Below the pieces are notes generated by a model. That model was not told the origin of the DNA, searched no databases, and was given only the letters and a program-made list of their open reading frames with translations. This document shows, in pieces, positions 13,681 through 50,757 of a DNA stretch of 64,000 nucleotides. The stretch comes from Closterium sp. NIES-65 (Eukaryota; Streptophyta; Zygnematophyceae; Desmidiales; Closteriaceae), in the NCBI GenBank assembly GCA_948144175.1, contig CANXME010002471.1, positions 62,001-126,000 on the forward strand, given 5' to 3'. A program made the position numbers and the translations under genes. How positions within the stretch are numbered: the stretch's first letter is position 1; the number at the start of each line of letters is the position of its first letter.

Positions 13681-14610
13681 AGTACCACTCATACAGCCAA
13701 GTAACGCACATACTCTTAATACGACTCGTATTGCTAAGTAACGCACTTATTCTTAGTACCACTCATAAGACTGAGTAACGCTCTTACTCTTTGTACTACT
13801 TGTATGGCTAGGTAACGCAGTTCCTCTTAGTAACACTCGTATTGCTAAGTTACGCACTTACTTTTAGTAGTCTTGATATGGCTAAGTAACGCACTTACTC
13901 TTAGTACTACTCATACACCTAATTAACGCACTTACTCTCAGTACGAGTCATTTAGCTAAATAACAGAATTACTATCAACACCACTCATACAACAAAGTAA
14001 CGCACAGTTTCTAGTACCACACATATGGCAAAGTAACGCACTTATTCTTAGTACCACTCATATAGGTAAGTAACGCTCTTATTTTTAGTACCAGACATGT
14101 GGCTAAATAATACACTTATTCCTAGTATCACTGGTATGGCTAAGTAATGCACTTGCTCTTAGTTCCACTCGTATCGCTAAATTGCGCTCATATTCTCAAT
14201 ACCACTCATATAACTAAGTAATGCATATACTTTTAGTAAAACTCGTATCGCTATATAGCGCACTTACCATTAGTACCAATCATATTGCTAACTTGTGCAA
14301 ATACTTTTAGTACCAGTCCTTTGGCTATCTAACGCTACTACTCTTAGTTCAACTCTTAATAAAATTAACACTTTTTTCAAGTACCACTCATATGGCAAAG
14401 TAACGAACTTACATGTAGTACCACTTATATAGCTAAGTAATGCATCTACTCCTAGAACCACTCATCTGGCTAAGTAACGCACATAAATTTAGTACCACTC
14501 GTATCGTTAATGTACGCACCTACTCTTAGTACCATTCATACAGCTCAAAAACAGTTGCTTTTAGTACCACTATTCATATTGCTAAATAATGCATTCCTGG
14601 TATCACTCAT
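13681..14610 (+). repeat. Higher-order satellite segment, copy 1
   Basis: This multi-unit segment has the same order of unit variants as 15851-16770, offset by about 2,170 bp. Shared landmarks are a unit with CATACAGCCAAG, one with CATAAGACTGAG, and near the end an irregular unit with TTCAACTC followed by TTTTTCAAGTACCAC. Confidence 0.75.
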
Positions 14611-15850: not shown

Positions 15851-16770
15851 AGTACCACTCATACAGCCAAGTAACGCACTTACTCTTAGTACTACTCGTA
15901 TTGCTAAGTAACGCACTTATTCTTAGTACCACTCATAAGACTGAGTAACGCTCTTACTCTTTGTACTAATTGTATGGCTAAGTAACGCATTTCTTCTTAG
16001 TACCACTCGTATTGCTAAGTTACGTACTTACTCTTAGTAGTAGTCATATGGCTAAGTAACGCACTTACTCTTAGTACTACTCATACACCTAAGTAATGCA
16101 CCTACTCTCAGTACCAGTCATATGGCTAAGTAAGAGAATTACTCTTAGTACTACTCATACAGCAAAGTAACACACATTTATCTAGTACCACACATATAGC
16201 AGAGTAACGCACTTATTCTTAGTACCACTCATATAGTTAAGTATCTCACTTATTCTTAGTACCACGCATGTGGCAAAGTAACACACTTACTCCTAGTATT
16301 ACTCGTATGGCTAAGTAACGCACTTCCTCTTAGTACCACTCGTATCGTTAAATCGCGCTCTTATTCTCAATACCACTCATAAAACTAAGTAATGCATTTA
16401 CTTTTCGTAAAACTCGTATCGCTATGTAGCGCTCTTACTATTAGTACCAATCAGAGTGCTAACTAGCGCAAATACTCTTAGTACCAGCGATTTGGCTATC
16501 TAACGCACTTACACTTAGTTCAACTCAAAAGAAGATTAACACACATTTTTCAAGTACCACGCATATGGCAAAATAACGCACTTACTCTTACTACCACTCG
16601 TATCGCTCAGTAACGTATTTACTCCTAGAACCTCTCATATGGCTAAGTAATGGACATAACTTTAGTACCACTCGTATCATTAATGTTCGCACCAACTCAT
16701 AGTACCATTCATACAGCTTAAAAACACCTACTCTTAGTACCACTATTCATATTGCTAAATAACGCACTCC
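15851..16770 (+). repeat. Higher-order satellite segment, copy 2
   Basis: The second copy of the segment at 13681-14610. Its right edge is where family C inserted, at a point equivalent to about 14600 in copy 1. Confidence 0.75.
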
Positions 16771-16912: not shown

Positions 16913-17497
16913 CGTCCTAGCCTAGGACCAATCTCTTAGGGCCCACCGAGTAGCGCTACCCCACCCGTTGCGCTAGTGCGATCACGTCGTACTGCCCTGC
17001 CCTGCCCTGCGCCGCTTGCAGCAGCGCGAACTGTTTTGCTAGCACGCCGCCTGCTGCAGCGCATCCTGCTGAGTCGCGCGCCACCTGCTGCAACGTGCCC
17101 TGCCCTGCCCGCGTGTCGCGCCGCCGCACACGCCCTGCCTGAGCGCCGAGCCACCGCGCGCCCTGCCCAGCCCGCGTGTCGCGTCGCCGTGCATCCTGCC
17201 CTGCTCGGGCGCCGCGCCGCCGCGCGCTCTGCCCTGCCCGCGCGACGCACCGCAACGCGCTCTGCCCTGCCCGCGCGCCACGCTGCTGCGTGCCCTGCCC
17301 TGCCCACGCACCGCGCCGCGCGCTCTGCCCTTACCTGCCCGCGCCCTACGCCGCGCGCCCTGGCCTGCCCGCGCACCGCGCGCCCTAACGTGAGTGCCGC
17401 GCCCTGCCCTGCCGTGCCCCCTGCCCTGCCGTGCTGCACTGCTGCTAGCGCGCTCCCTGCTGCATTACTGCTAGCGCGCCTGACTGCTCTCCCTGCT
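16913..17497 (+). other. Family C leader with GC-rich degenerate repeat
   Basis: Between primer site and gag start lies about 500 bp dominated by CCCTGCCC and GCGCGCC words in an irregular repeat. Several frames are open on both strands because the text is low in A and T. I see no domain in them and treat it as an untranslated leader. Confidence 0.6.
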
Positions 17498-17812
17498 ATG
17501 GCCGCTCTTAACGTTCTCACCTTTGATTCGGAGGGCCGCCCGATAGAGTTCAATGCATGGCTAGACGAGTTACAATTTTTCCTGCTGAGAGACTCTTCGG
17601 ACGGTATTTCGCTGTTTGACCTCACTTCTGGCGCCTCGCCCGCCCATGACGCCACAGCCGACAGTACGACTCGCTCACAGTGGCTTACCCGTCACGCTGC
17701 TGCTCGCCTAGCCGTTCGCAACCACCTGGCGTTAGCCAAACGCGCCCAGTTTGGCCAGCATAAGACAGCAAAAGCACCGTACTGCGAAGATAACTACTAC
17801 AACGGTAGCTAG
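17498..17812 (+). pseudogene. Family C copia gag, N-terminal fragment
   Basis: The ATG at 17498 begins MAALNVLTFDSEGRPIEF, followed by WLDELQFFLL and LTRHAAARLAVRNHL, recognisable as the N-terminus of a copia gag. The open frame extends upstream of 17498 through the GC-rich leader, but the family-like sequence begins at this ATG. Similarity appears to stop at about 17775, after HKTAKA; the last codons to the stop at 17812 lead into family B sequence from about 17809. Only about 90 residues of gag remain, so it cannot form capsids. The missing downstream part may be represented by the debris at 41118-42850. Confidence 0.75.
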
Positions 17813-17936
17813 ACTACGGGCTAGACTACGGGCTAGGCACTGATATCTGCGTTCGTTGGTCCTTAGTCGTTTTCCTAGTGCACACACTGCTTGCTAGTTA
17901 ATGGGGAAAGTTGGCAAGAGTTTCACTAGAGAAAGT
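17809..17936 (-). other. Family B leader, copy 2
   Basis: Similar to about 5400-5524: it shares GCTAGACTACGGGCTAG (partly doubled here), TCTGCGTTCGTT and TTGGCAAG. It adjoins the LTR end at 17937 and is cut on the left by the family C gag. Confidence 0.6.
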
Positions 17937-18943
17937 TGACAACAATGGTACAATGAAGTTGGCAAGACAAGACTACATCAGAGCTAGCATTCAGGTCGGT
18001 CGACTGCCAGCACAGCATGGTCGACCACGTTCCAGCACGACTTGGTCGACTGCGCTTCACCAGTGCAAAGTCGACAGCGTGCCAACGTTGCAGGTTGATG
18101 GCGTGCCAGCGTTGCTCCCACAGAACAGCATCGCACCAGCTTCGCAGGTGCTCGCAGATGATTGGCGTGCGGAGCCTTGTCACCTGCACAACGCACACAC
18201 CAAGTCAACCTGGCGCCGACGACTGCATCTGATCAGCCACCTCGACCTCGGGATACCACCACCGAGGTCGGACTCGTCAAATTTGCCTGGGCGACCGTCG
18301 CACTCCTCCGCAGAACCTCGTCACCCAGGTAACCTAGTCGACCGGGCAACCGCATCGACCAGGTGCTCCTGTATGTGCCTGTCGACCTCCCAAGTTGACG
18401 GCCACCTCCAGTCAACCTCTCCAGGTCGACCACACCCCTGGTCGACCAGCTCCAGGTCGACGTCACTCCTGGTCGACCAGCTCCACGTCGACCAGCACAG
18501 TCGTCAGCCGACCATCCAAGTCGGCTACCCGAATTCGGCGTCATCAAGTCGACGCCCCTTCTACGTTGGCGCCGACTTCCAGGCCGACCTCTTGAAGTCG
18601 GCGACCTCCCAAGTCGGCGCCCTTGCAAGTCGGCGACCTTGCAAGTCGGCGACCTTGCAAGTCGGTGACCTTGCAAGTCGGTGACCTTGCAAGTCGGTGA
18701 CCTTGCAAGTCGGCGCCGACTTCCAAGTCGACGTGCCACATCGCCGACCATCAGTTGAAGTCGGCCGCCGGCTTCCCAAGTCGGCGGCATTGCAGTGGCC
18801 CCGTGCAAGTCGACCAACCCTGTCGACCAGCTCGCCCAAGTTAGCGTCGCCCACTGCTGCAAGTCGTTGTACTTCACGTACACCCAACCACGAAGTTGGC
18901 TCTGCCCAAGCAAGGAAGGGGCCAACAACAACTCCCGTTGACA
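17937..18943 (-). repeat. Family B LTR, copy 2, 1,007 bp
   Basis: On the minus strand it begins TGTCAACGGGAGTTG at 18943 after the purine run GGCAGGGGAG and ends GTTGTCA at 17937. It contains about fifteen GTCGAC palindromes. It is 260 bp longer than copy 1, partly because of a 16-bp tandem repeat at 18625-18720. Confidence 0.78.
18625..18720 (+). repeat. 16-bp tandem repeat in the family B LTR, six units
   Basis: The unit GCAAGTCGGCGACCTT, with a GTGACC variant, is repeated about six times head to tail. It is absent from the copies at 5525 and 11754, so the LTR has expanded locally. Confidence 0.9.
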
Positions 18944-22859: not shown

Positions 22860-22890
22860 TGCGTTATAGTGATCCTCGATATAGGTAGCT

Positions 22891-25800
22891 ATGGCGGGCA
22901 ACACCTCGGCGGTAGCTGGTGAATCTTCAGCCCAAGATCGTAGCGGCAGCCAAGATTCTGGTGTTTCTGCGCCAAGGGGAGCGCGAACAAGCCAGGGCTC
23001 GCTGATCAAGGAGGTGCTGAAAAACTTCACCGTCGAGAAGTTCAATGGTGAGGGCTATGATGATTGGGCCTGGAAAATGCAACTTTATTTCCGTCAAATC
23101 GGATTGCTGAAACTAATGATTGGGGAGGAGCCTAGACCGAGTGACCCCGCCCTTCAGGAAGATTGGGACGAGCGCGCCTCGGCTGGCTACTACTTGATGT
23201 CGCAGAGTTTGGAGCTGAACCAGCGTCACCACGTCATGCACCTGCTGCCGGAGGTTGAGTGCGGTCCGAAGGCGTGGACCGTGTTGAAGGAGCTGCACGC
23301 CCCGACCTCCGTTGTTGCAACATTGATGCTGGAGAGGGAGCTGTCCGCGTTGCGCCTGAGCGAGGGAGAGCCGGTGCAACCTGTCCTGGACAAATTGCGC
23401 GACCTCTACGCGAAGTTGGCGACCGCAGGAATCACCTACCCGGAGCAAACAAAGTGCTTGAAGATGCTCTCGCTGCTGCCGGAATCGTGGCTTCAATTTA
23501 CGAGCGGATTGAGCCTGCCGCAGAACCAGAGCTTGTGGACGCTCGAGTGGGTGCGGACGAAGATTCTGGAGGAGGACTTCCGTCGCCGCCAACTGAGGGG
23601 TGGAGACGACGGCAGCAGCGGCTACGGGATGCAAGGGAGCCGACGTGGCAAAGGACGTGGCTTCGGTGGTGCTGGACGCGGTGCAAAGAAAGACGACGAC
23701 TCCAACGACCAACAAGGAGGTACCGGTTGGGGTCGCGGTGCGAAATCTGGACGTGGGGGCAAGTCGGGTGCTGGTGGCAAAATGAAAGGGAGTTGCTGGT
23801 ATTGTGAGAAGGAAGGGCACCCCTGGTTTTTGTGCTATAAGAAACCCGATGGATGGACCCCCCAGAATCGTCACCAGGATGGCGGCGCGCGGAGGAACCA
23901 GAAAAACGGCGCCAACATGGTCGCTGATTCGTCCGACAACAACCCGAAGGGCAACGGCGGTGCGGAGAAGAAGAAGGAGCGCACCGCGGGCCAATTCTTC
24001 CATATGGGAGACAAGGGGGAGCAAGGAGACGCATCTGCTAAGGCTGGAGCAGAGCTGCACCCCCTGGACTATTGGGTGTTGGACACAGGCGCTGCTTGGA
24101 CAATGACGCCGCGCAAGGACCTGCTGGACGACGTACGCGCTGCACCGATTAATGAGGTGTGCTCTGCCTCTGGACACATGTTGAAGGTGGCTGGTGCGGG
24201 ACGAGCTGCATTTAAGGGAGCGGATGGCAAGCCGGTGGTGCTGCACGACGTTCTCCTCGTCCCCGACCTGAAGGCCAACCTCATCTCCCTCCGTAAGCTT
24301 GGCAAGGCTGGGGTGAACACCAACACGGATGGGGCTCGCACTTATAAGGGGAAGCTGGGCAATCGGGTGCTTTGGGATCTGCACGAGAGCAAGGACGTGT
24401 ACAGATCTATGTGGCAGCTGCCGGCGCTGGCGTGGCACGGTGGGGGGCAGGCTAGAGAGGGGTCTGCATCCCAGGGGGAGTGCAACGCCGTTGGAGGGGT
24501 TGGTGTGAAAGTGTCGGCCAGATCTGGGGAGACAGATTGGGCAACTGCACACCGACGTTTGGGGCATGTGGCAATGCCTTTGCTGAAGCAGCTGGAGAAG
24601 GATGGAGCCGTTAAGGGCTTAAAGCTGAACGGACAACCACCCGATGATAACTGTGAAATTTGCCTCCTTTCAAAGTTCACCCGTTTCCCCTTCCATAGTG
24701 TGGCTGGCAGGAGCAAAAAGCCGTTGGAGCTGGTCCACATGGACTTGGTGGGGCCGCTGCCGGTGCAAGGGCACAAGGGGGAGCGGTACTTCCTAACCAT
24801 AGTGGATGACTGGAGCAGGCTAATGTGGGCGTATCCGCTGAAGCAGAAAGATCACGCCGCCTCCACGATTCGGGACGATTGGCTGCCGTTCGTGGAGAAG
24901 CAAGCGGAGTGTGTGGTGAAGCGGATTAGGACAGATCGGGGTGGTGAGTTCCTTGGAGCTGAGATGACAGCCTGGCTCAAGAAGCAGGGCATCCAGAGGG
25001 AGCTGACCACGGCTTACACCCCACAGTCTAACGGTGTAGCAGAACGGGCGAACCGGACAATTCTGGAGACAGCTAGGGCGCTGCTCATAGAATCTGGGCT
25101 GGGCAACTTGATGTGGCCCCATGCTGTTCGGCACGCTACCGTCGCTAGGAACAGGGTACTCACAAAGGTTGGGGATGACTCGTGGGTGCCGTTGGAGAGG
25201 TGGCTTGGGAGGAAGCCGCCGGTTGACATGCTGCGGGTGTTCGGTTGCATGGCAGTCGCCCACGTCCCCAAGACCTACCGCAGTAAGTTGGGGGCGAGTG
25301 CAATCTGGTGTGTGCATTTGGGGCTGGCTGCTGAGAGCAAGGGATGGCTGTTGTGGGAGCCTTCCAAGGGTGTGTTGTTTGACAGCAGGGATGTGAAGTT
25401 TGTTGAGGGCATGATGTATGGGAGCTGGGAGAAACAGCCGGAGGCCAGGGTGTCCCAGCAGATGAAGCAGATTACCATGCAGCTGGACCTGACTCCTAGT
25501 GTGTGGGAGGAGGGAGAGGAGGCAGCTGCAGAGGGTGGTGATAAAGAGAAGGTGCAGGAGGCACCTGCTGGTGGAGGTGATGGTGTGGAGATTAGCGGTA
25601 GCACTAGTGGAGCTGCTGGATCCGAGGGAGGAGAGCAGCAGCAGGGGAAAACTAAGAAGCCGAAGGGTGTTATTATGAAGGGATGGGAGACACCCGTCTC
25701 CAGGCCAGGACGTACCCGTATGGCTACTAAGAAGCTGACTGCAGGAGCTGATGTAGCGGAGCAGCAGCTTGGGACCGAGGAGGCATTGCTGATTCTACCG

Positions 25801-27471
25801 CATGGCTATGACCCGGATGAGGAGGATGAGCCTGCGTACTGTTTTCTTGCCCCTGCACCAGAGGAACCAGCTAGCATGGAGGAGGCATTAGCTGGACCAG
25901 ATAGGGACAAATGGCTAGCTTCCAGGGATGCTGAGTACCAGAGCCTGCTGGAGAATGGGACTTGGGAACTAGTGGTGCTGCCTGAGGGAAAGAAAGCGGT
26001 ACAATGCAAGTGGGTGCTAAGGATCAAGACTGACGACAAGGGGCAGGTCACCATCTACAAGAGTAGGTTGGTGGCTAAGGGGTTTATGCAGAAGGAGAAG
26101 CGGGACTTCAATGAGATCTTTGCTCCCACTGCCAAACCCCCTACCCTTCGTGTCTTGTTGGCAGATGCAGCCGTTAGTGGGAAGTTCATTATCCAGATGG
26201 ACATATCAACGGCATTTCTCAACGGGATTTTAGAGGAGGAGGTGTTCATGACGCAGCCACCTGGGTATGAGGATGGTACGGGCAGGGTGTGCAAGCTGAA
26301 AAAGTCCATCTACGGCTTGAAGCAGGCGCCACGCTGCTGGTACCAGAAGTTGGCAGCTGTTTTAGAGGAGATGGGATTCAGAACCAGCAGCTGTGATGAG
26401 AGCCTCTTTCTCAAGGGGGAGGGGGAGAAGCTGGTGCTGTTTCTGGTCTATGTGGACGACATTCTTCTCTTTAGCAGCAGCATGAAGGAGATCCAGAAGG
26501 TGCAGCAGCAGCTGATGGAGAACTTCAAGTGCAAGAACCTTGGGGAGGTAAAGTACTACCTCGGGATGCACGTGGAGAGGGATCTGGATCACAGGTGGTT
26601 GAAGCTGCACCAGGAGAAGTTCATCAAGGAGCTTGGGGAGAAGTACGGAATTGAGAATGAGCGCAAGGTTGCAACTCCCCTGCCAGCAGAATTCAGGCTT
26701 GTGAAAGCTGCAGAGGATGAAGGGGTTGAAGCCGAGGAGCAGCAGCAATTTCAGTCCTTGGTGGGCAGCCTCTTGTTTGCAGCAGTTCACACGAGACCCG
26801 ACATCTCTTTCTCGGTTGGGCAGCTGGCTAGGGTAGTGCAGAATCCATCAGAGGAGCAGGTGGATGCAGCTGAGCGTGTGGTGAAGTATCTGAACTCTCA
26901 CCCAAGCATTGGAGTTCAATACTCCGCATCTGCACAGGTGAAGCAGAAAGGGGTTGAGGTGCTGAAAGAGAAGGGGGAGAGGCTTGGAGAAGGCAAGCTT
27001 TTTCTCACTTGCTTTACTGATGCTACGTGGGCCTCTGAGAAGAAGGATTCCTCATCTGTGGGAGGATACATCTGCGTAGTTGGGGGAGGACCGGTTAGTT
27101 GGAGGTCAAAGAAGCAGACGGAGACAGCACTCTCTTCCGTGGAATCAGAGTACATGGCGATGTTCCATGGGGTGAAGGAGGTGATTTGGCTGAGGAGGCT
27201 GTTGGAGGAGATTGGCCAGGAGCAAAAGGTTGCTACGCCGCTGTTTTGTGATAGCAAGGGAGCTCTTGGGATGGCCAGGAACGCTGTGCTTCATGGGCTG
27301 AATAAGCACATGCGTATCAAGTGGCACTGGCTGCGTAAGGAGGTGAAGAGGGGGACGGTGAATCCGATCTACATCAAGACTCACCAGCAGCCAGCAGACT
27401 TCCTCACCAAGAGGCTTGCGGATGAGTCTCATTGGCGTTGTGTGCGCATGAGTGGAATGAGCATGAACTAG
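22891..27471 (+). CDS. E3 gag-pol polyprotein (Ty1/copia), intact, 1,526 aa
   Basis: One frame encodes the whole copia order. Gag spans about residues 45-235, followed by a Gly/Arg-rich RNA-binding stretch and a zinc knuckle (C302, C305, H310, C315). The aspartic protease motif DTGA starts at D398. Integrase has its zinc site at H554, H559, C588, C591 and a DD35E core at D618, D682 and E718. Reverse transcriptase spans about 1025-1268 with D1104 and YVDD at 1187-1190. RNase H has D1377, E1418, D1454 and ends near the QQPADFLTK motif. Integrase before RT marks copia, not gypsy. The ATG at 22891 is 31 bases after the primer site and is the first of the frame. No frameshift separates gag from pol, so the gag excess usually needed must come from another mechanism. 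All expected catalytic residues are present. Confidence 0.96.
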   Translation: MAGNTSAVAGESSAQDRSGSQDSGVSAPRGARTSQGSLIKEVLKNFTVEKFNGEGYDDWAWKMQLYFRQIGLLKLMIGEEPRPSDPALQEDWDERASAGYYLMSQSLELNQRHHVMHLLPEVECGPKAWTVLKELHAPTSVVATLMLERELSALRLSEGEPVQPVLDKLRDLYAKLATAGITYPEQTKCLKMLSLLPESWLQFTSGLSLPQNQSLWTLEWVRTKILEEDFRRRQLRGGDDGSSGYGMQGSRRGKGRGFGGAGRGAKKDDDSNDQQGGTGWGRGAKSGRGGKSGAGGKMKGSCWYCEKEGHPWFLCYKKPDGWTPQNRHQDGGARRNQKNGANMVADSSDNNPKGNGGAEKKKERTAGQFFHMGDKGEQGDASAKAGAELHPLDYWVLDTGAAWTMTPRKDLLDDVRAAPINEVCSASGHMLKVAGAGRAAFKGADGKPVVLHDVLLVPDLKANLISLRKLGKAGVNTNTDGARTYKGKLGNRVLWDLHESKDVYRSMWQLPALAWHGGGQAREGSASQGECNAVGGVGVKVSARSGETDWATAHRRLGHVAMPLLKQLEKDGAVKGLKLNGQPPDDNCEICLLSKFTRFPFHSVAGRSKKPLELVHMDLVGPLPVQGHKGERYFLTIVDDWSRLMWAYPLKQKDHAASTIRDDWLPFVEKQAECVVKRIRTDRGGEFLGAEMTAWLKKQGIQRELTTAYTPQSNGVAERANRTILETARALLIESGLGNLMWPHAVRHATVARNRVLTKVGDDSWVPLERWLGRKPPVDMLRVFGCMAVAHVPKTYRSKLGASAIWCVHLGLAAESKGWLLWEPSKGVLFDSRDVKFVEGMMYGSWEKQPEARVSQQMKQITMQLDLTPSVWEEGEEAAAEGGDKEKVQEAPAGGGDGVEISGSTSGAAGSEGGEQQQGKTKKPKGVIMKGWETPVSRPGRTRMATKKLTAGADVAEQQLGTEEALLILPHGYDPDEEDEPAYCFLAPAPEEPASMEEALAGPDRDKWLASRDAEYQSLLENGTWELVVLPEGKKAVQCKWVLRIKTDDKGQVTIYKSRLVAKGFMQKEKRDFNEIFAPTAKPPTLRVLLADAAVSGKFIIQMDISTAFLNGILEEEVFMTQPPGYEDGTGRVCKLKKSIYGLKQAPRCWYQKLAAVLEEMGFRTSSCDESLFLKGEGEKLVLFLVYVDDILLFSSSMKEIQKVQQQLMENFKCKNLGEVKYYLGMHVERDLDHRWLKLHQEKFIKELGEKYGIENERKVATPLPAEFRLVKAAEDEGVEAEEQQQFQSLVGSLLFAAVHTRPDISFSVGQLARVVQNPSEEQVDAAERVVKYLNSHPSIGVQYSASAQVKQKGVEVLKEKGERLGEGKLFLTCFTDATWASEKKDSSSVGGYICVVGGGPVSWRSKKQTETALSSVESEYMAMFHGVKEVIWLRRLLEEIGQEQKVATPLFCDSKGALGMARNAVLHGLNKHMRIKWHWLRKEVKRGTVNPIYIKTHQQPADFLTKRLADESHWRCVRMSGMSMN

Positions 27472-32229: not shown

Positions 32230-35200
32230 CTAGTTCATGCTCATTCCACTCATGCGCACACAACGCCAATGAGACTCATCCGCAAGCCTCTTGGTGAGGA
32301 AGTCCGCTGGCTGCTGGTGAGTCTTGATGTAGATCGGATTCACCGTCCCCCTCTTCACCTCCTTACGCAGCCAGTGCCACTTGATACGCATGTGCTTATT
32401 CAGCCCATGAAGCACAGCGTTCCTGGCCATCCCAAGAGCTCCCTTGCTATCACAAAACAGCGGCGTAGCAACCTTTTGCTCCTGGCCAATCTCCTCCAAC
32501 AGCCTCCTCAGCCAAATCACCTCCTTCACCCCATGGAACATCGCCATGTACTCTGATTCCACGGAAGAGAGTGCTGTCTCCGTCTGCTTCTTTGACCTCC
32601 AACTAACCGGTCCTCCCCCAACTACGCAGATGTATCCTCCCACAGATGAGGAATCCTCCTTCTCAGAGGCCCACGTAGCGTCAGTAAAGCAAGTGAGAAA
32701 AAGCTTGCCTTCTCCAAGCCTCTCCCCCTTCTCTTTCAGCACCTCAACCCCTTTCTGCTTCACCTGTGCAGATGCGGAGTATTGAACTCCAATGCTTGGG
32801 TGAGAGTTCAGATACTTCACCACACGCTCAGCTGCATCCACCTGCTCCTCTGATGGATTCTGCACTACCCTAGCCAGCTGCCCAACCGAGAAAGAGATGT
32901 CGGGTCTCGTGTGAACTGCTGCATACAAGAGGCTGCCCACCAAGGACTGAAATTGCTGCTGCTCCTCGGCTTCAACCCCTTCATCCTCTGCAGCTTTCAC
33001 AAGCTTGAATTCTGCTGGCAGGGGAGTTGCAACCTTGCGCTCATTCTCAATTCCGTACTTCTCCCCAAGCTCCTTGATGAACTTCTCCTGGTGCAGCTTC
33101 AACCACCTGTGATCCAGATCCCTCTCCACGTGCATCCCGAGGTAGTACTTTACCTCCCCAAGGTTCTTGCACTTGAAGTTCTCCATCAGCTGCTGCTGCA
33201 CCTTCTGGATCTCCTTCATGCTGCTGCTAAAGAAAAGAATGTCGTCCACATAGACCAGAAACAGCACCAGCTTCTCCCCCTCCCCCTTGAGAAAGAGGCT
33301 CTCATCACAGCTGCTGGTCCTGAATCCCATTTCCTCTAAAACAGCTGCCAACTTCTGGTACCAGCAGCGTGGCGCCTGCTTCAAGCCGTAGATGGACTTT
33401 TTCAGCTTGCACACCCTGCCCGTACCATCCTCATACCCAGGTGGCTGCGTCATGAACACCTCCTCCTCTAAAATCCCATTGAGGAATGCCGTTGATATAT
33501 CCATCTGGATAATGAACTTCCCACTAACGGCTGCATCTGCCAACAAGACACGAAGGGTAGGGGGTTTGGCAGTGGGAGCAAAGATCTCATTGAAGTCCCG
33601 CTTCTCCTTCTGCATAAACCCCTTAGCCACCAACCTACTCTTGTAGATGGTGACCTGCCCCTTGTCGTCAGTCTTGATCCTTAGCACCCACTTGCATTGT
33701 ACCGCTTTCTTTCCCTCAGGCAGCACCACTAGTTCCCAAGTCCCATTCTCCAGCAGGCTCTGGTATTCAGCATCCCTGGAAGCTAGCCATTTGTCCCTAT
33801 CTGGTCCAGCTAATGCCTCCTCCATGCTAGCTGGTTCCTCTGGTGCAGGGGCAAGAAAACAGTACGCAGGTTGATCCTCCTCATCCGGGTCATAGCCATG
33901 CGGTAGAATCAGCAATGCCTCCTCGGTCCCAAGCTGCTGCTCCGCTACATCAGCTCCTGCAGTCAGCTTCTTAGTAGCCATACGGGTACGTCCTGGCCTG
34001 GAGACGGGTGTCTCCCATCCCTTCATAACGACACCCTTCGGCTTCTTAGTTTTCCCCTGCTGCTGCTCTCCTCCCTCGGATCCAGCAGCTCCACTAGTGC
34101 TACCGCTAGTCTCCACACCATTGTTTTTACCGGCAGGTGCCTCCTGCACCTTCTCTTTATCACCACCCTCTGCAGCTGCCTCCTCTCCCTCCTCCCACAC
34201 ACTAGGAGTCAGGTCCAGCTGCATGGTAATCTGCTTCATCTGCTGGGACACCCTGGCCTCCGGCTGTTTCTCCCAGCTCCCATACATCATGCCCTCAACA
34301 AACTTCACATCCCTGCTGTCAAACAACACACCCTTGGAAGGCTCCCACAGCAGCCATCCCTTGCTTTCAGCAGCCAGCCCCAAATGTACACACCAGATTG
34401 CACTCGCCCCCAACTTACTGCGGTAGGTCTTGGGAACGTGGGCGACTGCCATGCAACCGAACACCCTCAGCATGTCCACCGGCGGCTTCCTCCCAAGCCA
34501 CCTCTCCAACGGCACCCACGAGTCATCCCCAACCTTTGTGAGTACCCTGTTCCTAGCGACGGTAGCGTGCCGAACAGCATGGGGCCACATCAAGTTGCCC
34601 AGCCCAGATTCTATGAGCAGCGCCCTAGCTGTCTCCAGAATTGTCCGGTTCGCCCGTTCTGCTACACCGTTGGACTGTGGGGTGTAAGCCGTGGTCAGCT
34701 CCCTCTGGATGCCCTGCTTCTTGAGCCAGGCCGTCATCTCAGCTCCAAGGAACTCACCACCCCGATCTGTCCTAATCCGCTTCACCACACACTCCGCTTG
34801 CTTCTCCACGAACGGCAGCCAATCGTCCCGAATCGTGGAGGCGGCGTGATCTTTCTGCTTCAGCGGATACGCCCACATTAGCCTGCTCCAGTCATCCACT
34901 ATGGTTAGGAAGTACCGCTCCCCCTTGTGCCCTTGCACCGGCAGCGGCCCCACCAAGTCCATGTGGACCAGCTCCAACGGCTTTTTGCTCCTGCCAGCCA
35001 CACTATGGAAGGGGAAACGGGTGAACTTTGAAAGGAGGCAAATTTCACAGTTATCATCGGGTGGTTGTCCGTTCAGCTTTAAGCCCTTAACGGCTCCATC
35101 CTTCTCCAGCTGCTTCAGCAAAGGCATTGCCACATGCCCCAAACGTCGGTGTGCAGTTGCCCAATCTGTCTCCCCAGATCTGGCCGACACTTTCACACCA

Positions 35201-36810
35201 ACCCCTCCAACGGCGTTGCACTCCCCCTGGGATGCAGACCCCTCTCCAGCCTGCCCCCCACCGTGCCACGCCAGCGCCGGCAGCTGCCACATAGATCTGT
35301 ACACGTCCTTGCTCTCGTGCAGATCCCAAAGCACCCGATTGCCCAGCTTCCCCTTATAAGTGCGAGCCCCATCCGTGTTGGTGTTCACCCCAGCCTTGCC
35401 AAGCTTACGGAGGGAGATGAGGTTGGCCTTCAGGTCGGGGACGAGGAGAACGTCGTGCAGCACCACCGGCTTGCCATCCGCTCCCTTAAATGCAGCTCGT
35501 CCCGCACCAGCCACCTTCAACATGTGTCCAGAGGCAGAGCACACCTCATTAATCGGTGCAGCGCGTACGTCGTCCAGCAGGTCCTTGCGCGGCGTCATTG
35601 TCCAAGCAGCGCCTGTGTCCAACACCCAATAGTCCAGGGGGTGCAGCTCTGCTCCAGCCTTAGCAGATGCGTCTCCTTGCTCCCCCTTGTCTCCCATATG
35701 GAAGAATTGGCCCGCGGTGCGCTCCTTCTTCTTCTCCGCACCGCCGTTGCCCTTCGGGTTGTTGTCGGACGAATCAGCGACCATGTTGGCGCCGTTTTTC
35801 TGGTTCCTCCGCGCGCCGCCATCCTGGTGACGATTCTGGGGGGTCCATCCATCGGGTTTCTTATAGCACAAAAACCAGGGATGCCCTTCCTTCTCACAAT
35901 ACCAGCAACTCCCTTTCATTTTGCCACCAGCACCCGACTTGCCCCCACGTCCAGATTTCGCACCGCGACCCCAACCGGTACCTCCTTGTTGGTCGTTGGA
36001 GTCGTCGTCTTTCTTTGCACCGCGTCCAGCACCACCGAAGCCACGTCCTTTGCCACGTCGGCTCCCTTGCATCCCGTAGCCGCTGCTGCCGTCGTCTCCA
36101 CCCCTCAGTTGGCGGCGACGGAAGTCCTCCTCCAGAATCTTCGTCCGCACCCACTCGAGCGTCCACAAGCTCTGGTTCTGCGGCAGGCTCAATCCGCTCG
36201 TAAATTGAAGCCACGATTCCGGCAGCAGCGAGAGCATCTTCAAGCACTTTGTTTGCTCCGGGTAGGTGATTCCTGCGGTCGCCAACTTCGCGTAGAGGTC
36301 GCGCAATTTGTCCAGGACAGGTTGCACCGGCTCTCCCTCGCTCAGGCGCAACGCGGACAGCTCCCTCTCCAGCATCAATGTTGCAACAACGGAGGTCGGG
36401 GCGTGCAGCTCCTTCAACACCGTCCACGCCTTCGGACCGCACTCAACCTCCGGCAGCAGGTGCATGACGTGGTGACGCTGGTTCAGCTCCAAACTCTGCG
36501 ACATCAAGTAGTAGCCAGCCGAGGCGCGCTCGTCCCAATCTTCCTGAAGGGCGGGGTCACTCGGTCTAGGCTCCTCCCCAATCATTAGTTTCAGCAATCC
36601 GATTTGACGGAAATAAAGTTGCATTTTCCAGGCCCAATCATCATAGCCCTCACCATTGAACTTCTCGACGGTGAAGTTTTTCAGCACCTCCTTGATCAGC
36701 GAGCCCTGGCTTGTTCGCGCTCCCCTTGGCGCAGAAACACCAGAATCATGGCTGCCGCTACGATCTTGGGCTGAAGATTCACCAGCTACCGCCGAGGTGT
36801 TGCCCGCCAT
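32230..36810 (-). CDS. E4 gag-pol polyprotein (Ty1/copia), intact, 1,526 aa
   Basis: Same length and domain order as the E3 polyprotein: gag, CCHC knuckle, DTGA protease, HHCC and DD35E integrase, YVDD reverse transcriptase and RNase H with the same end. Differences are few. In the acidic linker after integrase it reads KNNGVETSG where E3 has GGDGVEISG, and after YVDD it reads ILFFSSS instead of ILLFSSS. No stop or frameshift is present and the catalytic residues are kept. Start chosen as the ATG equivalent to E3, 31 bases from the primer site. Gag-pol of E3 and E4 face each other with E2 pol between them. Confidence 0.96.
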   Translation of the reverse strand: MAGNTSAVAGESSAQDRSGSHDSGVSAPRGARTSQGSLIKEVLKNFTVEKFNGEGYDDWAWKMQLYFRQIGLLKLMIGEEPRPSDPALQEDWDERASAGYYLMSQSLELNQRHHVMHLLPEVECGPKAWTVLKELHAPTSVVATLMLERELSALRLSEGEPVQPVLDKLRDLYAKLATAGITYPEQTKCLKMLSLLPESWLQFTSGLSLPQNQSLWTLEWVRTKILEEDFRRRQLRGGDDGSSGYGMQGSRRGKGRGFGGAGRGAKKDDDSNDQQGGTGWGRGAKSGRGGKSGAGGKMKGSCWYCEKEGHPWFLCYKKPDGWTPQNRHQDGGARRNQKNGANMVADSSDNNPKGNGGAEKKKERTAGQFFHMGDKGEQGDASAKAGAELHPLDYWVLDTGAAWTMTPRKDLLDDVRAAPINEVCSASGHMLKVAGAGRAAFKGADGKPVVLHDVLLVPDLKANLISLRKLGKAGVNTNTDGARTYKGKLGNRVLWDLHESKDVYRSMWQLPALAWHGGGQAGEGSASQGECNAVGGVGVKVSARSGETDWATAHRRLGHVAMPLLKQLEKDGAVKGLKLNGQPPDDNCEICLLSKFTRFPFHSVAGRSKKPLELVHMDLVGPLPVQGHKGERYFLTIVDDWSRLMWAYPLKQKDHAASTIRDDWLPFVEKQAECVVKRIRTDRGGEFLGAEMTAWLKKQGIQRELTTAYTPQSNGVAERANRTILETARALLIESGLGNLMWPHAVRHATVARNRVLTKVGDDSWVPLERWLGRKPPVDMLRVFGCMAVAHVPKTYRSKLGASAIWCVHLGLAAESKGWLLWEPSKGVLFDSRDVKFVEGMMYGSWEKQPEARVSQQMKQITMQLDLTPSVWEEGEEAAAEGGDKEKVQEAPAGKNNGVETSGSTSGAAGSEGGEQQQGKTKKPKGVVMKGWETPVSRPGRTRMATKKLTAGADVAEQQLGTEEALLILPHGYDPDEEDQPAYCFLAPAPEEPASMEEALAGPDRDKWLASRDAEYQSLLENGTWELVVLPEGKKAVQCKWVLRIKTDDKGQVTIYKSRLVAKGFMQKEKRDFNEIFAPTAKPPTLRVLLADAAVSGKFIIQMDISTAFLNGILEEEVFMTQPPGYEDGTGRVCKLKKSIYGLKQAPRCWYQKLAAVLEEMGFRTSSCDESLFLKGEGEKLVLFLVYVDDILFFSSSMKEIQKVQQQLMENFKCKNLGEVKYYLGMHVERDLDHRWLKLHQEKFIKELGEKYGIENERKVATPLPAEFKLVKAAEDEGVEAEEQQQFQSLVGSLLYAAVHTRPDISFSVGQLARVVQNPSEEQVDAAERVVKYLNSHPSIGVQYSASAQVKQKGVEVLKEKGERLGEGKLFLTCFTDATWASEKEDSSSVGGYICVVGGGPVSWRSKKQTETALSSVESEYMAMFHGVKEVIWLRRLLEEIGQEQKVATPLFCDSKGALGMARNAVLHGLNKHMRIKWHWLRKEVKRGTVNPIYIKTHQQPADFLTKRLADESHWRCVRMSGMSMN

Positions 36811-36841
36811 AGCTACCTATATCGAGGATCACTATAACGCA

Positions 36842-44869: not shown

Positions 44870-45692
44870 TGTTGGGTGCAAATTCACATTGCACGACATC
44901 CTGCCGTCTGTTTGTATGAGTATGCGTGTGCGAATGCATTTGGGTGTGAATGGAATGTTCGTGTGTTTGTTTGCTTTCGCAATTTTTGCTTGAAGCATTT
45001 GCAGGTTCTCGCGCATTATGCACTTCAGCACAACATTGTACGCGCTATGAACAGTACAAGCAGAAAGGACGAGCTTGCAAAGGAACCCAAGATGGAATCT
45101 TTGCGGTTCGGTTGAATTGATTATGCAGATTCTGTTTTATCCAACTCAAAATTGTATTCTTTTGTTTGGTTGACTTTAGTGTAGCAGGGCAGGCACTATA
45201 GGGGTACAATTTAGGTGAAGGTTGGATGTTGTTTGTCTATATCTACTTGCTACAGGACCAGGGGAAACCAATGGAACCAGCATTTGGCTGGTTGGGCAAA
45301 GACAAATCAGGTTCTGTTTTTTAGGACCTGAACCTGGTTGTTGTTTTCCCAAGTTGGAAAAACAGAACCAGAGGTTGTTTACCAACCTACCACCTGCTGT
45401 TTTGTCCAGCCAGGTTGGTTATGTTGCTTGGAATTATTTGGGATCATCCCTAGTTGTTCCCAGGTTTATTCCCAAGGTCCTTACTAGCTAGAACTATATA
45501 TTCCTTCTCTGTTTGTACCTGAATATAGTCAATTTGATTCAAGCGAATTCCTCCCTTCCTAGAATTTCGTTTCTACGCGGTGCGATGGCGGAATGCTACC
45601 CGAGTCAACGCTAGTACGCTAGCACTCCAACGCTAGGCAAACACTGTCTGCGCCAGAACTTTATAATGGCAGAACTTTTCGCGAGGCAACTT
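44870..45692 (+). repeat. E6 5' LTR (family A), first part
   Basis: Starts TGTTGGGTGC and is collinear with other family A LTRs until GAGGCAACTT, where the LARD is inserted. With 49161-49431 it adds up to 1,094 bp, the normal family length. Confidence 0.95.
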
Positions 45693-45920
45693 TATTCAAG
45701 TCTAGCTTGACTTAAGCTTAGGAGCCATAGTTAAGGAGGTTCTTAGTAGTTGAGGTTTGGGGTTGAGGAGAGGGTCGAGAAAGTTGAGAGAGGAGAAAGG
45801 GGGCTTCACTATAGGTTGGCAACAACATATAGCAAAGAAACAAAGAGGGTGCACCACCAAACAAAGTTCATAATAACTATACTAACTACAGCTACATGCA
45901 GTTACAGATATATTATGACA
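45693..45920 (-). repeat. LARD 3' LTR, 228 bp
   Basis: On plus it runs TATTCAAGTCTAGC to ATTATGACA. The first dinucleotide TA is changed from the TG seen at 48928. Confidence 0.88.
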
Positions 45921-45928
45921 CTCCCCCA
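45921..45928 (-). other. LARD polypurine tract
   Basis: CTCCCCCA on plus, a purine run on the minus strand, adjoins the LTR start TGTCATAA. Confidence 0.7.
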
Positions 45929-46450
45929 TAACTGCTTGCAGCAAAAGCTAATGCAGAGACACTCCCTGAAGGGGTACACCAAGTGCAGCAGAAGAAGAGG
46001 GCAAGTGAGGAGGAGGGACTATATGCGGAGAGGCTGCTGGCAGGTGAAGCTGCTGGCTCCAAGGTGGCTGCTTCCTAGAACCTTCCTCAGTCCTCCAACT
46101 CCCCCTTCCATACTCCTTGATAACCCTAGCACCTGTCCCTCAGCTCCCCCACACCCTCACACCCACCCCTCCCCAGCGGCAGCTACAGCAGTGGGAGAGA
46201 AAGGAGGAGGAGGGGAAGGGGATCACACACACCCATCACCCCCATACCCGCCACCCCCATAGCCTCCGTTCCACGGCTGCACGCGCAGCAGGGAGACAAA
46301 GAAGGGGGAGGGGGAAGAGCAGGGGCAGCATAGGCACGGGCAGGGCAGCCGCGCGTGCAGGGCAACAGCGCGGAGCAGTAGCAGAGCGCACAAGGGCGCA
46401 CGCAGACCAGAGCGCACAAGGGCGCGGGCAGCAGCAGGGCGCACGACGGG
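45929..46450 (-). other. LARD interior beside the 3' LTR, non-repetitive
   Basis: About 520 bp with no recognised gene. It becomes GC-rich and grades into the minisatellite. Polyproline-like and poly-purine text gives short open frames, but none with a known motif. Confidence 0.5.
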
Positions 46451-48390
46451 CAGCACAGGCACGGGCAGCAACGGGCGGCAACGGGCAGCACAGGCACGGG
46501 CAGCAACGGGCGGCAACGGGCAGCACAGGCACGGGCAGCAACGGGCGGCAACGGGCAGCACAGGCACGGGCAGCAACGGGCGGCAACGGGCAGCACAAGC
46601 ACGGGCAGCAACGGGCGGCAACGGGCAGCAAAGGCACGGGCAGCAGCACGCAGCAGCGGGCAGCACAGGCACAGGCAGCAACGGGCGGCAACAGGCAGCA
46701 CAGGCACGGGCAGCGACAGGCAGCACAGGCACGGGCAGCAACGGGCGGCAACAGGCAGCACAGGCACGAGCAGCAACAGGCAGCAACGTGCAGCACAGGC
46801 ACGGGAAGCAACGGGCGGCAACAGGCAGCACAGGCAGCAAAGGCACAGGCAGCAACAGGCAGCATAGGCACTAGCAGCAACGGGCGGCAACGGGCAGCAC
46901 AGGCACGGGCAGCAACAGGCAGCAACAGGCAGCACAGGCACGGGCAGCAACAGGCGGCAACGGGCAGCACAGGCACAGGCAGCAACGGGCGGCAACAGGC
47001 AGCACAGGCACAGGCAGCGACAGGCAGCACAGGCACGGGCAGCAACGGGCGGCAACAGGCAGCACAGGCACGGGCAGCAACAGACAGCAACGTGCAGCAC
47101 AGGCACGGGAAGCAACAGGCAGCAACGGGCAGCACAGGCACGGGCAGCAACGGGCGGCAACAGGCAGCACAGGCAGCAAAGGCACAGGCAGCAACAGGCA
47201 GCACAGGCACTGGCAGCAACGGGCGGCAACGGGCAGCACAGGCACGGGCAGCAACAGGCAGCAACAGGCAGCACAGGCACGGGCAGCAACAGGCGGCAAC
47301 GGGCAGCACAGGCACAGGCAGCAACGGGCGGCAACAGGCAGCACAGGCACGGGCAGCGACAGGCAGCACAGGCACGTGCAGCAACGGGCGGCAACGGGCA
47401 GCACAGGCACGGGCAGCGACAGGCAGCACAGGCACGGGCAGCAACGGGCGGCAACAGGCAGCACAGGCACAGGCAGCAACAGGCAGCAAAGTGCAGCACA
47501 GGCACGGGAAGCAACAGGCAGCAACGGGCAGCACAGGCACGGGCAGCAACGGGCGGCAACAGGCAGCACAGGCAGCAAAGGCACAGGGAGCAACAGGCAG
47601 CACAGGCACTGGCAGCAACGGGCGGCAACGGGCAGCACAGGCACGGGCAGCAACAGGCAGCAACAGGCAGCACAGGCACGGGCAGCAACAGGCGGCAACG
47701 GCCAGCACAGGCACAGGCAGCAACGGGCGGCAACAGGCAGCACAGGCACGGGCAGCGACAGGCAGCACAGGCACGTGCAGCAACGGGCGGCAACGGGCAG
47801 CACAGGCACGGGCAGCGACACGCAGCACAGGCACGGGCAGCAACGGGCGGCAACAGGCAGCACAGGCACATGCAGCAACAGGCAGCACAGGCACGGGCAG
47901 CAACGGGCGGCAACAGGGAGCACAGGCACGGGCAGCAACGGGCGGCAACGGGCAGCACAGGCACGGGCAGCGCAGCCACGGGCAGCAACGGGCGGCAACG
48001 AGCAGCGCAGGCACGGGCAGCAACAAGCGGCAGCGGGCAGCATAGGCACGGGCAGCAACAGGCGGCAACGGGCAGCACAGGCACGGGCAGCAACGGGCGG
48101 CAACAGGCAGCACAGGCACGGGCAGCAACAGGCGGCAACAGGCAGCACAGGCACGGGCAGCAACAGGCGGCAACGGGCAGCACAGGCACAGGCAGCAACG
48201 GGCGGTAACAGGCAGCACAGGCACGGGCAGCGACAGGCAGCACACGCACGGGCAGCAACGGGCGGCAACGGGTAGCACGGGCACGGGCAGCGACAGGCAG
48301 CACAGGCACGGGCAGCAACGGGCGGCGACAGGCAGCACAGGCACAGACAGCAAGAGGCAGCAACGCGCGGCAACAGGCAGCAAGGTAGGC
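46451..48390 (+). repeat. 35-bp GC-rich minisatellite inside the LARD
   Basis: About 55 units. The unit is CAGCACAGGCACGGG, CAGCAACGGG and CGGCAACGGG joined, so it is itself built from related decamers. First units start at 46451, 46486 and 46521. ACGGG often changes to ACAGG, and units lose or gain decamers. Longer blocks repeat at about 46860, 47200 and 47600. Because 35 is not a multiple of three and the unit has no stop in any phase on either strand, long frames are open in at least five of six readings. Confidence 0.93.
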
Positions 48391-48927
48391 CCGCGCACGG
48401 CTGCAACGCTGGTGCGGGCGCAGGTGAGGCAGAGGCGGTGGCCAGGGGGGAGGGCGCCGCGATGAGTAGGAGCGGCGCCCAAGGGGTGCCGCTATGAGTA
48501 AGGGCGACGCCCCATGGGCGCCGCGACGAGCAGGAGCGGCGTCCAGGGGGCGTCGCGATGAGCAGTGGCGACGCCCCGCGGATCCCGCAGTGGCGTCCCG
48601 ACGAGCAAGGCGACGCCGTGCGGGTCCTGTAGGGGCGTCGCGACGAGCAGGAGCAGCAACGCCCGGGTCCCGCAGGTGCGTCGCGACGAGCAGGAGCGGC
48701 GCCTCGCAGGGCGCCGCGAAGTGGAGGGTACGGGCGGGCAAAATAGGCCCGCGCGTGGACGTGAGGCAGGCGCGCAGGCGGCGTGAGGGCAGGCCACGTG
48801 CGGGGCAGGAAGACGCCGCGCGGCGGGCAGAAAATCGCCGTGCGCCCGCCGCGCGCCCGAGGCGCGCGGCAGGACGATAGGCAGCGGAAGCAGGAAGTCA
48901 GCAGGAAAGTACCTGCTCTGAATACCA
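48391..48927 (-). other. LARD interior beside the 5' LTR, GC-rich imperfect repeats
   Basis: Between about 48440 and 48720 words such as GGCGTCGCGACGAGCAGGAGC recur irregularly. Minus-strand frames through it join the minisatellite frames (up to 852 codons, 48741-46183). No domain is seen. The primer site is at 48914-48927. Confidence 0.5.
48914..48927 (-). other. LARD primer-binding site
   Basis: On the minus strand TGGTATTCAGAGCA follows the LTR end directly. It matches TGGTATCAGAGC of family A with one extra T. Confidence 0.8.
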
Positions 48928-49155
48928 TGTTCAAGTCTAGCTTGACTTAAGCTTAGGGGCCATAGTTAAGGAGGTTCTTAGTAGTTGAGGTTTAGGGTTG
49001 AGGAGAGTGTCGAGAAAGTTGAGAGAGTAGAAAGAGGGCTTCACTATAGGTTGGCAACAACATATAGCAAAGAAACAAAGAGGGTGCACCACCAAACAAA
49101 GTTTATAATAACTACACTAACTACATCTACAGGCAGTTACAGATATATTTGGACA
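48928..49155 (-). repeat. LARD 5' LTR, 228 bp
   Basis: On plus TGTTCAAGTCTAGC to ATTTGGACA, same length as the partner at 45693. Confidence 0.88.
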
Positions 49156-49160
49156 ACCTT

Positions 49161-49431
49161 GGCTTATTTTAAAGCTCTTGGAGTGAGCTTTGATATAGAA
49201 AATTCTCAGCTTAATCTGGTCGACGGTCTGCACGATACACTGTGCGACATTCAAGGTACTCTTGTTATTTTGACTAAGTTATTATTGATCCCTCTCTCTA
49301 CAAACTCGTACCCAAGGATAGGGGCTGGTCTTGTACCAGGCACCCAAGGACCCTTGAAGGTGACCCCGAGGAGAGGTTTTAAGTCTGATAAAGTCTTAAC
49401 AGCTAGAGTTTATTAGGCCCTTACACCAACA
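49161..49431 (+). repeat. E6 5' LTR, second part
   Basis: Continues the LTR after the LARD target duplication and ends CACCAACA, followed by the primer site at 49435-49446. Confidence 0.95.
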
Positions 49432-49434
49432 AGC

Positions 49435-49446
49435 TGGTATCAGAGC
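49435..49446 (+). other. E6 primer-binding site
   Basis: TGGTATCAGAGC three bases after the LTR end. Confidence 0.9.
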
Positions 49447-49477
49447 TGCGTTATAGTGATCCTCGATATAGGTAGCT

Positions 49478-50757
49478 ATGGCGGGCAACACCTCGACAGG
49501 AGCTGATGAATCTTCAGCCCAAGATCGTAGTGGCAGCCATAATTCTGGTGTTTCAGTGGCAAGGGGAGCGCAAACAAACCAGGGCTCGCTGGTCTAGAAA
49601 GTGCTGAAGAATTTCACCGTCGAGAATTTCAATGGTGAGGGCTATGATGATTGGGCCTGGAAAATGCAACTATATTTCCGTCAGACTGGATTGCTGAAAC
49701 TTATGATTGGGGAGGAGCCTAGACCGAGTAATCCCACGCTGCAGGAAGATTGGGACGAACGCTGCTCGGCTGGCTACTATTTGATGTCACAGAGTTTGGA
49801 GCTGAACCAGCGTCACCACGTTATGCACCTGCTGCTGAAGGTTGAGTGCGGTCCGAAGACGTGGACCGTGTTGAAGGAGCTGCACGCCCCGACCTCCGTT
49901 ATTGCAACGTTGATGCTAGAGAGGGAGCTGTCCGCATTGCGCCTGAGCAAGGGAGAGCCGGTGCAACCTGTCCTGGACAAATTGCGCGACCTCTACGCGA
50001 AGTTGGCGACCGCAGGAATCACCTACCCGGAGCAGACCAAGTGCCTGAAGATGCTCTCGCTGATGCCGGAATCGTGGCTTCAATTCACGAGCGGATTGAG
50101 CCTGCCGCAGAACCAGAGCTCGTGGACACTCGAGTGGGTGCGGACAAAGATTCTAGAGGAGGACTTCCGTCGCTGCCAACGTAAGGGTGGAGACGACGGC
50201 AGCAATGGCTATGGGATGCAAGGGAGCCGACGTGGCAGAGGACGTGGCTTCGGTGGTGCTGGACGCGGTGCAAAGAAGGACGACGAGTCCAATGACCAAC
50301 AAGGAGGTACCGGTTGGGGTCGCGTTGCGAAATCTGGACGTGGGGGCAAGTCGGGTGCTGGTGGCAAAATGAAAGGGAGTTGCTGGTATTGTGAGAAGGA
50401 GGGGCACCCCTGGTTTTTGTGCTATAAGAAACCCGATGGATGGACCCCCCAGAATCGTCACCAGGATGGCGGCGCGCGGAGGAACCAAAAAAACGGCGCG
50501 AGCATAGTTGCCGATTCGTCCGACAACAACCCGAAGAGCAACGGCGGTGCGGAGAAGAAGAAGGAGTGCCCCGCGGGCCAGTTCTTCCATATTGGAGAGC
50601 AGGGGGAGCAGAGGGAGCAAGGAGACGCCTCTGCCAAGGTTGGAGCAGAGCTGCACCCCCTGGATTATTGGGTGTTGGACACGGGCGCTGCTTGGATGAT
50701 GACCCCGCGCAAGGACCTGCTTGACCACGTATGCGCTGCACCGATCAACGAGGTGTG
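49478..50757 (+). pseudogene. E6 gag-protease, with stop, interrupted by E7
   Basis: It starts at the family ATG (MAGNTS) and aligns with residues 1 to about 424 of the E3 polyprotein. A TAG at 49595-49597 replaces codon 40. Beyond it the frame stays open through the gag domain, the Gly/Arg-rich stretch, the zinc knuckle and the protease motif DTGA. Three extra residues are present in the acidic run before the protease (GEQREQ). It is broken at GTGTG by E7 and resumes at 57620. It is more diverged from E3 than E2 is, so this is an older copy. Confidence 0.93.

Follow-up and report, generated by a model that had tools for sequence, protein, structure and literature searches.

A high-copy, non-coding and apparently Copia-type LTR retrotransposon family in Closterium with a body of ordered minisatellite arrays

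Tandem arrays within LTR retrotransposons are known from several systems. The Tat/Ogre elements of the Ty3-gypsy type carry hypervariable tandem repeats in the 3′-UTR, located after pol in coding elements or in their deletion forms, and the repeats FabTR-54 and FabTR-57 were found in copies that have no pol; recombination between co-packaged copies was proposed as the source of array change (PMC7004042). In Gmr9/GmOgre of soybean, a coding gypsy element of more than 21 kb, five interleaved minisatellite families with polymorphic unit number lie in one LTR element, after the coding region (PMC3305785). About half of the Retand elements, which are coding gypsy elements with an interior of 7.4-12.9 kb, contain tandem arrays between pol and the 3′ LTR, and some of them are non-autonomous (PMC11963269). 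LARD elements consist of LTRs and a protein-less core domain, for which mobilization in trans is presumed and RNA structure has been noted (PMC7215508). TRIM elements encode no protein, have short LTRs and many copies with different target duplications, and do not exceed 1.5 kb (PMC4717578).

The family described here shares features with each of these systems. Its variable minisatellite arrays, in an LTR element and in non-autonomous copies, resemble those of Tat/Ogre; the presence of several distinct minisatellites with variable unit number in one element is like Gmr9/GmOgre, and the combination of tandem arrays with non-autonomous forms is like Retand. Unlike all three, which are coding gypsy elements or, in Tat/Ogre, also their deletion forms, the 14 copies of the family are non-coding. 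They also differ from Tat/Ogre in having the 5-bp target duplications and Met-type primer site of Copia, and arrays that extend from the leader to the 3′ part; with no pol and with arrays beginning in the leader, the family does not show the arrangement typical of Ogre/Tat, namely arrays between a gypsy pol and the 3′ LTR. The LARD-like features are the LTRs, the protein-less interior and a non-coding core that is conserved among copies (leader block and 3′ region), but the core is made up of minisatellites and varies in length; the LARD class fits the family in function, not in make-up. Absence of protein, short LTRs and many copies with different target duplications are as in TRIM elements, whereas the size of 1.8-3.9 kb lies above the 1.5-kb limit of PMC4717578, and the family is therefore not TRIM.

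Among the papers listed in a literature search, mostly open without subscription and judged by title and opening of the abstract, none dealt with a non-coding LTR family composed of several minisatellites. The original prediction held that a non-autonomous LTR element with a large GC-rich tandem array as its main content was unusual, and was the best candidate for something undescribed. That expectation is not borne out for the kind of element, since LTR retrotransposons with hypervariable minisatellite blocks, non-autonomous members among them, have been published (PMC7004042, PMC3305785, PMC11963269). The kind is already known, as tandem arrays within LTR retrotransposons, and the present family is a non-coding, apparently Copia-type variant of it.

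The window, that is, the whole stretch of DNA analysed, comprises 64,000 nucleotides of the genome of Closterium sp. NIES-65 (contig CANXME010002471.1, positions 62,001 to 126,000 of the forward strand). The element occupies positions 45693-49155 (3.46 kb), and its parts are listed in Table 1. Because TGGTATTCAGAGCA adjoins the right-hand LTR and TTATGGGGGAG adjoins the left-hand LTR, the sense strand is the minus strand; this reading direction was absent from the original prediction. The paired 228-bp LTRs, the primer site and the purine tract had been predicted correctly: the LTRs are 95% identical (11 mismatches in 226 positions), and the two priming sequences lie directly against them. The primer site is of the initiator-Met type. 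Tandem repeats (the 35-, 43-, 32- and 26-bp arrays) account for 69% of the element.

Table 1. Features of the element and of its insertion site, in positions of the window
Feature	Position	Strand	Basis
Host Copia fragment (LTR + gag), split by the element	44870..50757	+	halves contiguous in sibling copies
Target duplication, left copy, AACTT	45688..45692		empty site in sibling Copia LTRs
3′ LTR, 228 bp	45693..45920	-	LTR-LTR comparison
Purine tract TTATGGGGGAG, immediately 5′ of the 3′ LTR in sense	45921..45931	-	sequence and family junction
3′ region, non-repetitive, stops in all three sense frames	45932..46367	-	stop scan
26/27-bp array, 2.9 units	46368..46444	-	tandem-repeat analysis
35-bp hypervariable array, 58 units	46421..48379	-	tandem-repeat analysis
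Site of the CAG-rich array of 11/14 members, missing in this copy	48380..48451	-	copy comparison
Leader block, tandem inverted-repeat units, predicted to fold strongly as RNA	48446..48721	-	fold vs shuffles
32-bp array, 3.9 units	48452..48576	-	tandem-repeat analysis
43-bp array, 3.8 units	48547..48707	-	tandem-repeat analysis
Primer binding site TGGTATTCAGAGCA, abutting the 5′ LTR	48914..48927	-	sequence and genome counts
5′ LTR, 228 bp	48928..49155	-	LTR-LTR comparison
Target duplication, right copy, ACCTT, a one-base difference from AACTT	49156..49160		empty site in sibling Copia LTRs

The element is inserted in the LTR of the host Copia fragment, and the empty site, CGCGAGGCAACTTGGCTTATT, is visible in sibling Copia LTRs within the window. 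Since the sibling Copia copies are uninterrupted, the target duplication and both ends of the element are fixed independently of the LTRs, and the near-perfect 5-bp duplication that had been claimed (AACTT/ACCTT, one mismatch) is confirmed. A second contig, C1399 (L033), contains the same insertion with a right-hand duplication that is one base shorter (GGACAACTTGG). The sequence of C1399 looks error-laden, and the mismatch between AACTT and ACCTT is not settled by it, because it is full of one-base insertions and deletions.

A search of the genome with the LTR gave matches at all 40 of the scored places (the best 40 of 2882 candidates). Twenty stretches were taken from the LTR matches, of which 13 contain a paired element and seven a single LTR; the latter comprise four solo LTRs with target duplications, the insertion shared by C1399 and the window, and two broken elements. 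Together with the window copy, the 13 paired elements form the set of 14 used throughout, with sizes of 1794-3894 bp. Perfect 5-bp target duplications flank ten of the 14, two have one mismatch, and the two that have none are a tandem copy and a truncated copy; three of the four solo LTRs have perfect duplications, and one has a single mismatch. The genome contains 120 occurrences of an exact 18-mer spanning the primer site and leader, 40 of a variant of this string, 80 of the junction of purine tract and LTR, GGGAGTGTCAGAATATATCTGTAA, and 704 of one exact 35-mer unit of the array; the reversed control gave 0 for each of them. The counts for the 18-mer and the 35-mer show that the element in the window is not a chance arrangement. 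The window copy is not among the 80 junctions, as its own LTR start differs.

When 100 of the 120 exact and all 40 of the variant primer-site matches (140 listed sites) were paired with the 80 junctions, 37 pairs resulted, three of which were dropped for megabase distances; 33 have interiors of 1162-3316 bp and one has an interior of 11,207 bp. Flank comparison, which covered these loci together with C1667, C1673 and C1772, identified three allele pairs or duplicate contigs among the 33. C1667/C1673 was rejected as a further allele pair, the interiors being equal in length and the flanks different. The primer site takes the form TGGTATTCAGAGC in seven of the 14 paired copies, TGGTATCAGAGC in L036, TGGTATTAGAGC in L041 and L046, and TGGTATTGAGAGC in L031, with a closely related form in L039; no primer site was seen in L037 or L049. 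L041 and L046 also have a second leader type, TGGTATTAGAGCC. The LTRs end in TG..CA, with GA or TA in place of the terminal CA in some copies. TG..CA ends, a 5-bp duplication and a Met-type primer site are features of the Copia superfamily, and all three are found in this family. A further Copia trait, the order IN-RT-RH in pol, falls away in an element that has no pol.

The 14 paired copies mostly share one order of five GC-rich arrays. In the sense direction, the body consists of a 43-bp array (present in 11/14 copies), a 32-bp array (12/14), a CAG-rich array with periods of 15, 20, 30, 75 and 105 bp (11/14), the 35-bp array (14/14) and a 26/27/53/80-bp array (13/14), followed by about 400 bp of non-repetitive sequence. 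Both leader arrays (43- and 32-bp) are missing from L037 and L050, and the 43-bp array is missing from L049, which has a nested element inside. The tandem-repeat share of a copy is 37-69%. The leader block has a mean column identity of 94% in the 12 copies that possess it, and the 3′ region of 13 copies is 91-97% alike to that of the C1778 copy, compared with 85.5% for L047. Where present, the leader arrays are nearly constant in unit number, and the 35-bp array is not: the coefficients of variation are 0.11 for the 43-bp and 0.04 for the 32-bp array (11 copies), and 0.44 for the 35-bp array (14 copies), which ranges from 13.6 to 58 units, the window copy being the largest. The 35-bp array matches itself at shifts of 10, 15, 25 and 35 bp. 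A locus on another contig (C481:1051400-1055129) has nine exact 35-bp units across 3.7 kb, and may be an expansion toward satellite size, unless it consists of two adjacent copies.

These comparisons bear on whether the array is a private expansion, in which a minisatellite grew by chance in a single truncated element and is no trait of a family. The window array is the largest of the 14 and includes a probably late duplication of 399 bp, and to this part of its length such an account does apply. It is refuted for the array itself by the occurrence of the 35-bp array at the same position in all 14 paired copies and by the 704 exact units in the genome, and as an explanation of the locus it is very improbable. 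The original prediction had named two contrary outcomes, that other copies with the same LTR would lack the repeat or encode gag-pol, or that no other copy would exist. As copies with the same LTR exist, share the array (14/14) and lack gag-pol in all 14, neither is the case.

Searches for coding capacity were negative, as expected for an interior predicted to lack gag and pol and to consist mainly of tandem repeat. Queries with three Copia and two gypsy proteins (tblastn) gave no match inside the 14 paired copies, and the two long open frames across the window element had no Pfam match at an E-value of 0.01; Rfam likewise gave no match at the gathering score. The 3′ region was considered as a coding sequence, and this was rejected by stops in every sense frame in 14/14 copies. 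The 35-bp array keeps no reading frame, given a 35-bp unit and match shifts of 10, 15, 25 and 35 bp. The assignment to non-autonomous LTR retrotransposons thus holds: LTRs, a primer site, a purine tract, target duplications, many copies and solo LTRs are all present, and gag-pol is absent from the 14 copies.

Among the listed pairs of primer sites and junctions, no autonomous partner carrying the family LTR was found, and the sole long candidate proved to be nested. This candidate, C1778:63048-74255, has the family LTR, primer site, leader and purine tract, its first 739 bp are 92.6% identical to L036, and it contains gag-like and RVT_2 pol frames, as would a master copy encoding gag-pol. Beyond sense position 743 of this copy (L060), an antisense LTR is followed by a 128-bp LTR with the primer site TGGTATAGAGC, and in at least 13 LTR-pol pairs, that of C1778 included, the latter LTR is found 4.7-5.1 kb upstream of the pol of a very abundant Copia element (from the best 40 of 8644 pol and the best 40 of 2512 LTR candidates, with pol identities of 98-99%). 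Since the family sequence stops where the antisense LTR and the 128-bp LTR start, and since this LTR recurs before the Copia pol, the coding region is a nested Copia insertion, and the candidate was rejected as a master copy, a reading to which we give almost no weight. The family LTR shows no significant similarity to the LTR of the nested element, Copia-A (31/500 mononucleotide shuffles were as good). It is significantly similar to the antisense LTR, termed LTR X (0/500), and LTR X is significantly similar to the Copia-A LTR (0/500). The nested element as enzyme donor is plausible, no more. It also has GC-rich arrays before gag. Mobilization of the family in trans is inferred from the negative outcome of the search for a partner.

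RNA folding distinguished the leader from the 35-bp array. In the window copy, to which all shuffle tests of folding apply, the leader block was predicted to fold with -159.7 kcal/mol, compared with -126.8 ± 4.3 kcal/mol for shuffled sequences (z = -7.7), and folds computed for 12 leader copies without shuffling lie between -149.5 and -161.8 kcal/mol. Each unit of the 43- and 32-bp leader arrays is an inverted repeat. The predicted leader structure finds no support in covariation: only one of 85 pairs shows a two-sided change among the 12 copies (covariation term +2.18), and many pairs are disrupted, for instance by C-to-T or G-to-A changes. In view of the lack of compensatory change, the inverted-repeat units may by themselves account for the fold. 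A unit-level covariation signal (equalled by 4, 1 and 145 of 2000 shuffles) was rejected as due to one out-of-register unit among 48, the values after its removal being 390, 460 and 1580 of 2000.

The sense RNA of the 35-bp array in the window copy folds no better than shuffled sequences (z = +1.36, with 94/100 shuffles folding at least as well); the antisense strand folds better than shuffles (z = -3.98). The original prediction had considered the 35-bp array as a possible packaging or structural RNA module; the sense fold does not support this, and the strongly folding part of the window copy is the 43/32-bp leader. That the array is itself under selection, either as such a module or as a protein-coding repeat, would agree with its retention in 14/14 paired copies despite its length. 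Together with the sense fold, the lack of a reading frame and of a Pfam match, and a unit number that varies more than fourfold, make such selection improbable.

The time at which array length changes was addressed using insertion dates from LTR divergence (over truncated LTRs in L037 and L042). The six youngest copies (LTR divergence 0.41-1.35%) have 19, 20, 24, 25, 32 and 36 units of the 35-bp array. Five of them have arrays whose most similar 150-bp stretches still differ by 3.3-8.7%, exceeding the LTR divergence; these arrays were therefore shaped before insertion. L031, also young (LTR divergence 0.88%), contains an identical 150-bp pair at a 35-bp shift. Two allele pairs, C2240/C1963 and C2188/C622, align through the arrays with no unit gained or lost, 0.46-0.65% mismatches, and gaps of five bases in a C-run and of a single base. 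Three more pairs have interior lengths of 1699/1699, 1809/1809 and 2129/2131 bp, with 301-bp flanks that are 99-100% identical, and two allele pairs with identical flanks may be duplicates of one haplotype. In a further candidate pair, C233/C405, judged by unit spacing and not by flanks, six exact 35-mers are spaced alike.

The older copies gave a different picture. In six of the eight (the window copy, L037, L039, L042, L047 and L048), the closest-matching 150-bp pair is less diverged than the LTRs, although this measure, as a minimum taken across many windows, tends to come out too low. Within the window array, 526 bp match a stretch displaced by 399 bp at 97.9% identity (11/526 differences), and this divergence of 2.1% compares with 4.87% (11/226) for the LTR pair (Fisher p = 0.056); a late duplication probably added about 11 units to this copy. 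The standard deviation of unit number is 15.3 in older and 6.7 in younger copies, and unit number and LTR divergence are uncorrelated (Spearman 0.08, p = 0.79).

If array length changed solely in the host chromosome after insertion, by unequal exchange or replication slippage, blocks younger than the LTRs, as found in 6/8 older and 1/6 young copies, and the wider spread of unit number among older copies would be expected. It is harder to reconcile with young copies that already range from 19 to 36 units, with internal block pairs that predate insertion in five of the six, and with five allele pairs that show no unit change, and we consider a purely chromosomal origin unlikely. The differences among young copies, together with the unchanged allele pairs, indicate that part of the change precedes integration, and the younger-than-LTR blocks and the wider spread in older copies indicate later change in the chromosome as well. 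Change both before integration and later is thus concluded, the former being the preferred source of the spread among young copies. The earlier suggestion that the minisatellite expands during reverse transcription stands in this part, and has to be complemented by later chromosomal change. The data fit either template switching or slippage of reverse transcriptase.

The window copy is probably one member of a high-copy, non-coding and apparently Copia-type LTR family that would move using enzymes from other elements. The leader arrays would be retained as sequences that the RNA requires in packaging or dimerization, and the 35-bp array would be tolerated filler. Its unit number would shift before integration, when reverse transcriptase changes template or slips along the RNA, and once more in ageing chromosomal copies, through duplication of blocks. 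A bolder version is possible, if doubtful: a non-coding lineage whose packaged RNA would be mostly minisatellite, in which leader hairpins of fixed number would act as the packaging or dimerization signal and the 35-bp block would be re-sized in nearly every replication cycle, seeding the genome with ever-different GC-rich arrays. In either form, a single element sets arrays of constant unit number against one that varies freely. Well over 100 primer-site matches, datable insertions and allele pairs make it possible to ask whether a minisatellite changes in the particle or in the chromosome, and the link between retroelements and new satellites is widened beyond the gypsy Tat/Ogre lineage.

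At L041, one of the paired copies of the non-coding family, both LTRs are followed by a primer site and the same leader, and the locus therefore looks like a tandem LTR-interior-LTR-interior copy. A 3.7-kb stretch of contig C481, in the genome searched (G000), holds nine exact 35-bp units spread across it and exceeds every array analysed; it is either an expanded 35-bp array or a group of neighbouring copies.

A tRNA-like repeat occurs dispersed in three stretches carrying matches to the family LTR; motifs resembling box A/B lie around TGGTATCAGAGC, and the repeat is perhaps a tRNA-derived SINE. Within the window, a gag-like open frame is immediately preceded by a GC-rich 33-bp array and followed by 16-bp arrays; across 95 aa it shares 63% identity with the gag protein of Copia-A, the abundant element. 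The window also holds a 37-bp satellite and several Copia copies, many of them mutually 98-99% identical.

LTR X, which stands beside the Copia-A insertion in L060, is related to the LTR of the minisatellite family and also to that of Copia-A. The nested element of L049, another paired copy, has LTR-like repeats that match each other perfectly for at least 160 bp and resemble the LTR of the minisatellite family at 73%; this element is a second, younger family.

Positions of the features described
Feature	Sequence	Position	Detail
Satellite	window	7854-16768	8.9 kb, ~243 units
Gag-like frame with arrays	window	16940-18730	
33-bp array	window	17097-17381	
Gag-like frame	window	17498-17812	
Copia copies	window	19245-57614	LTRs ~1094 bp
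Intact Copia frames	window	22885-27471; 32230-36816	1528 aa
tRNA-like repeat	L035	6093; 6590	
tRNA-like repeat	L041	9597	
tRNA-like repeat	L043	6798	
Primer site and leader after each LTR	L041	3655; 5928	minus
Nested element	L049	5394-6584	
LTR X	L060 (sense)	743-869	antisense, ~125 bp
35-bp units	C481	1051400-1055129
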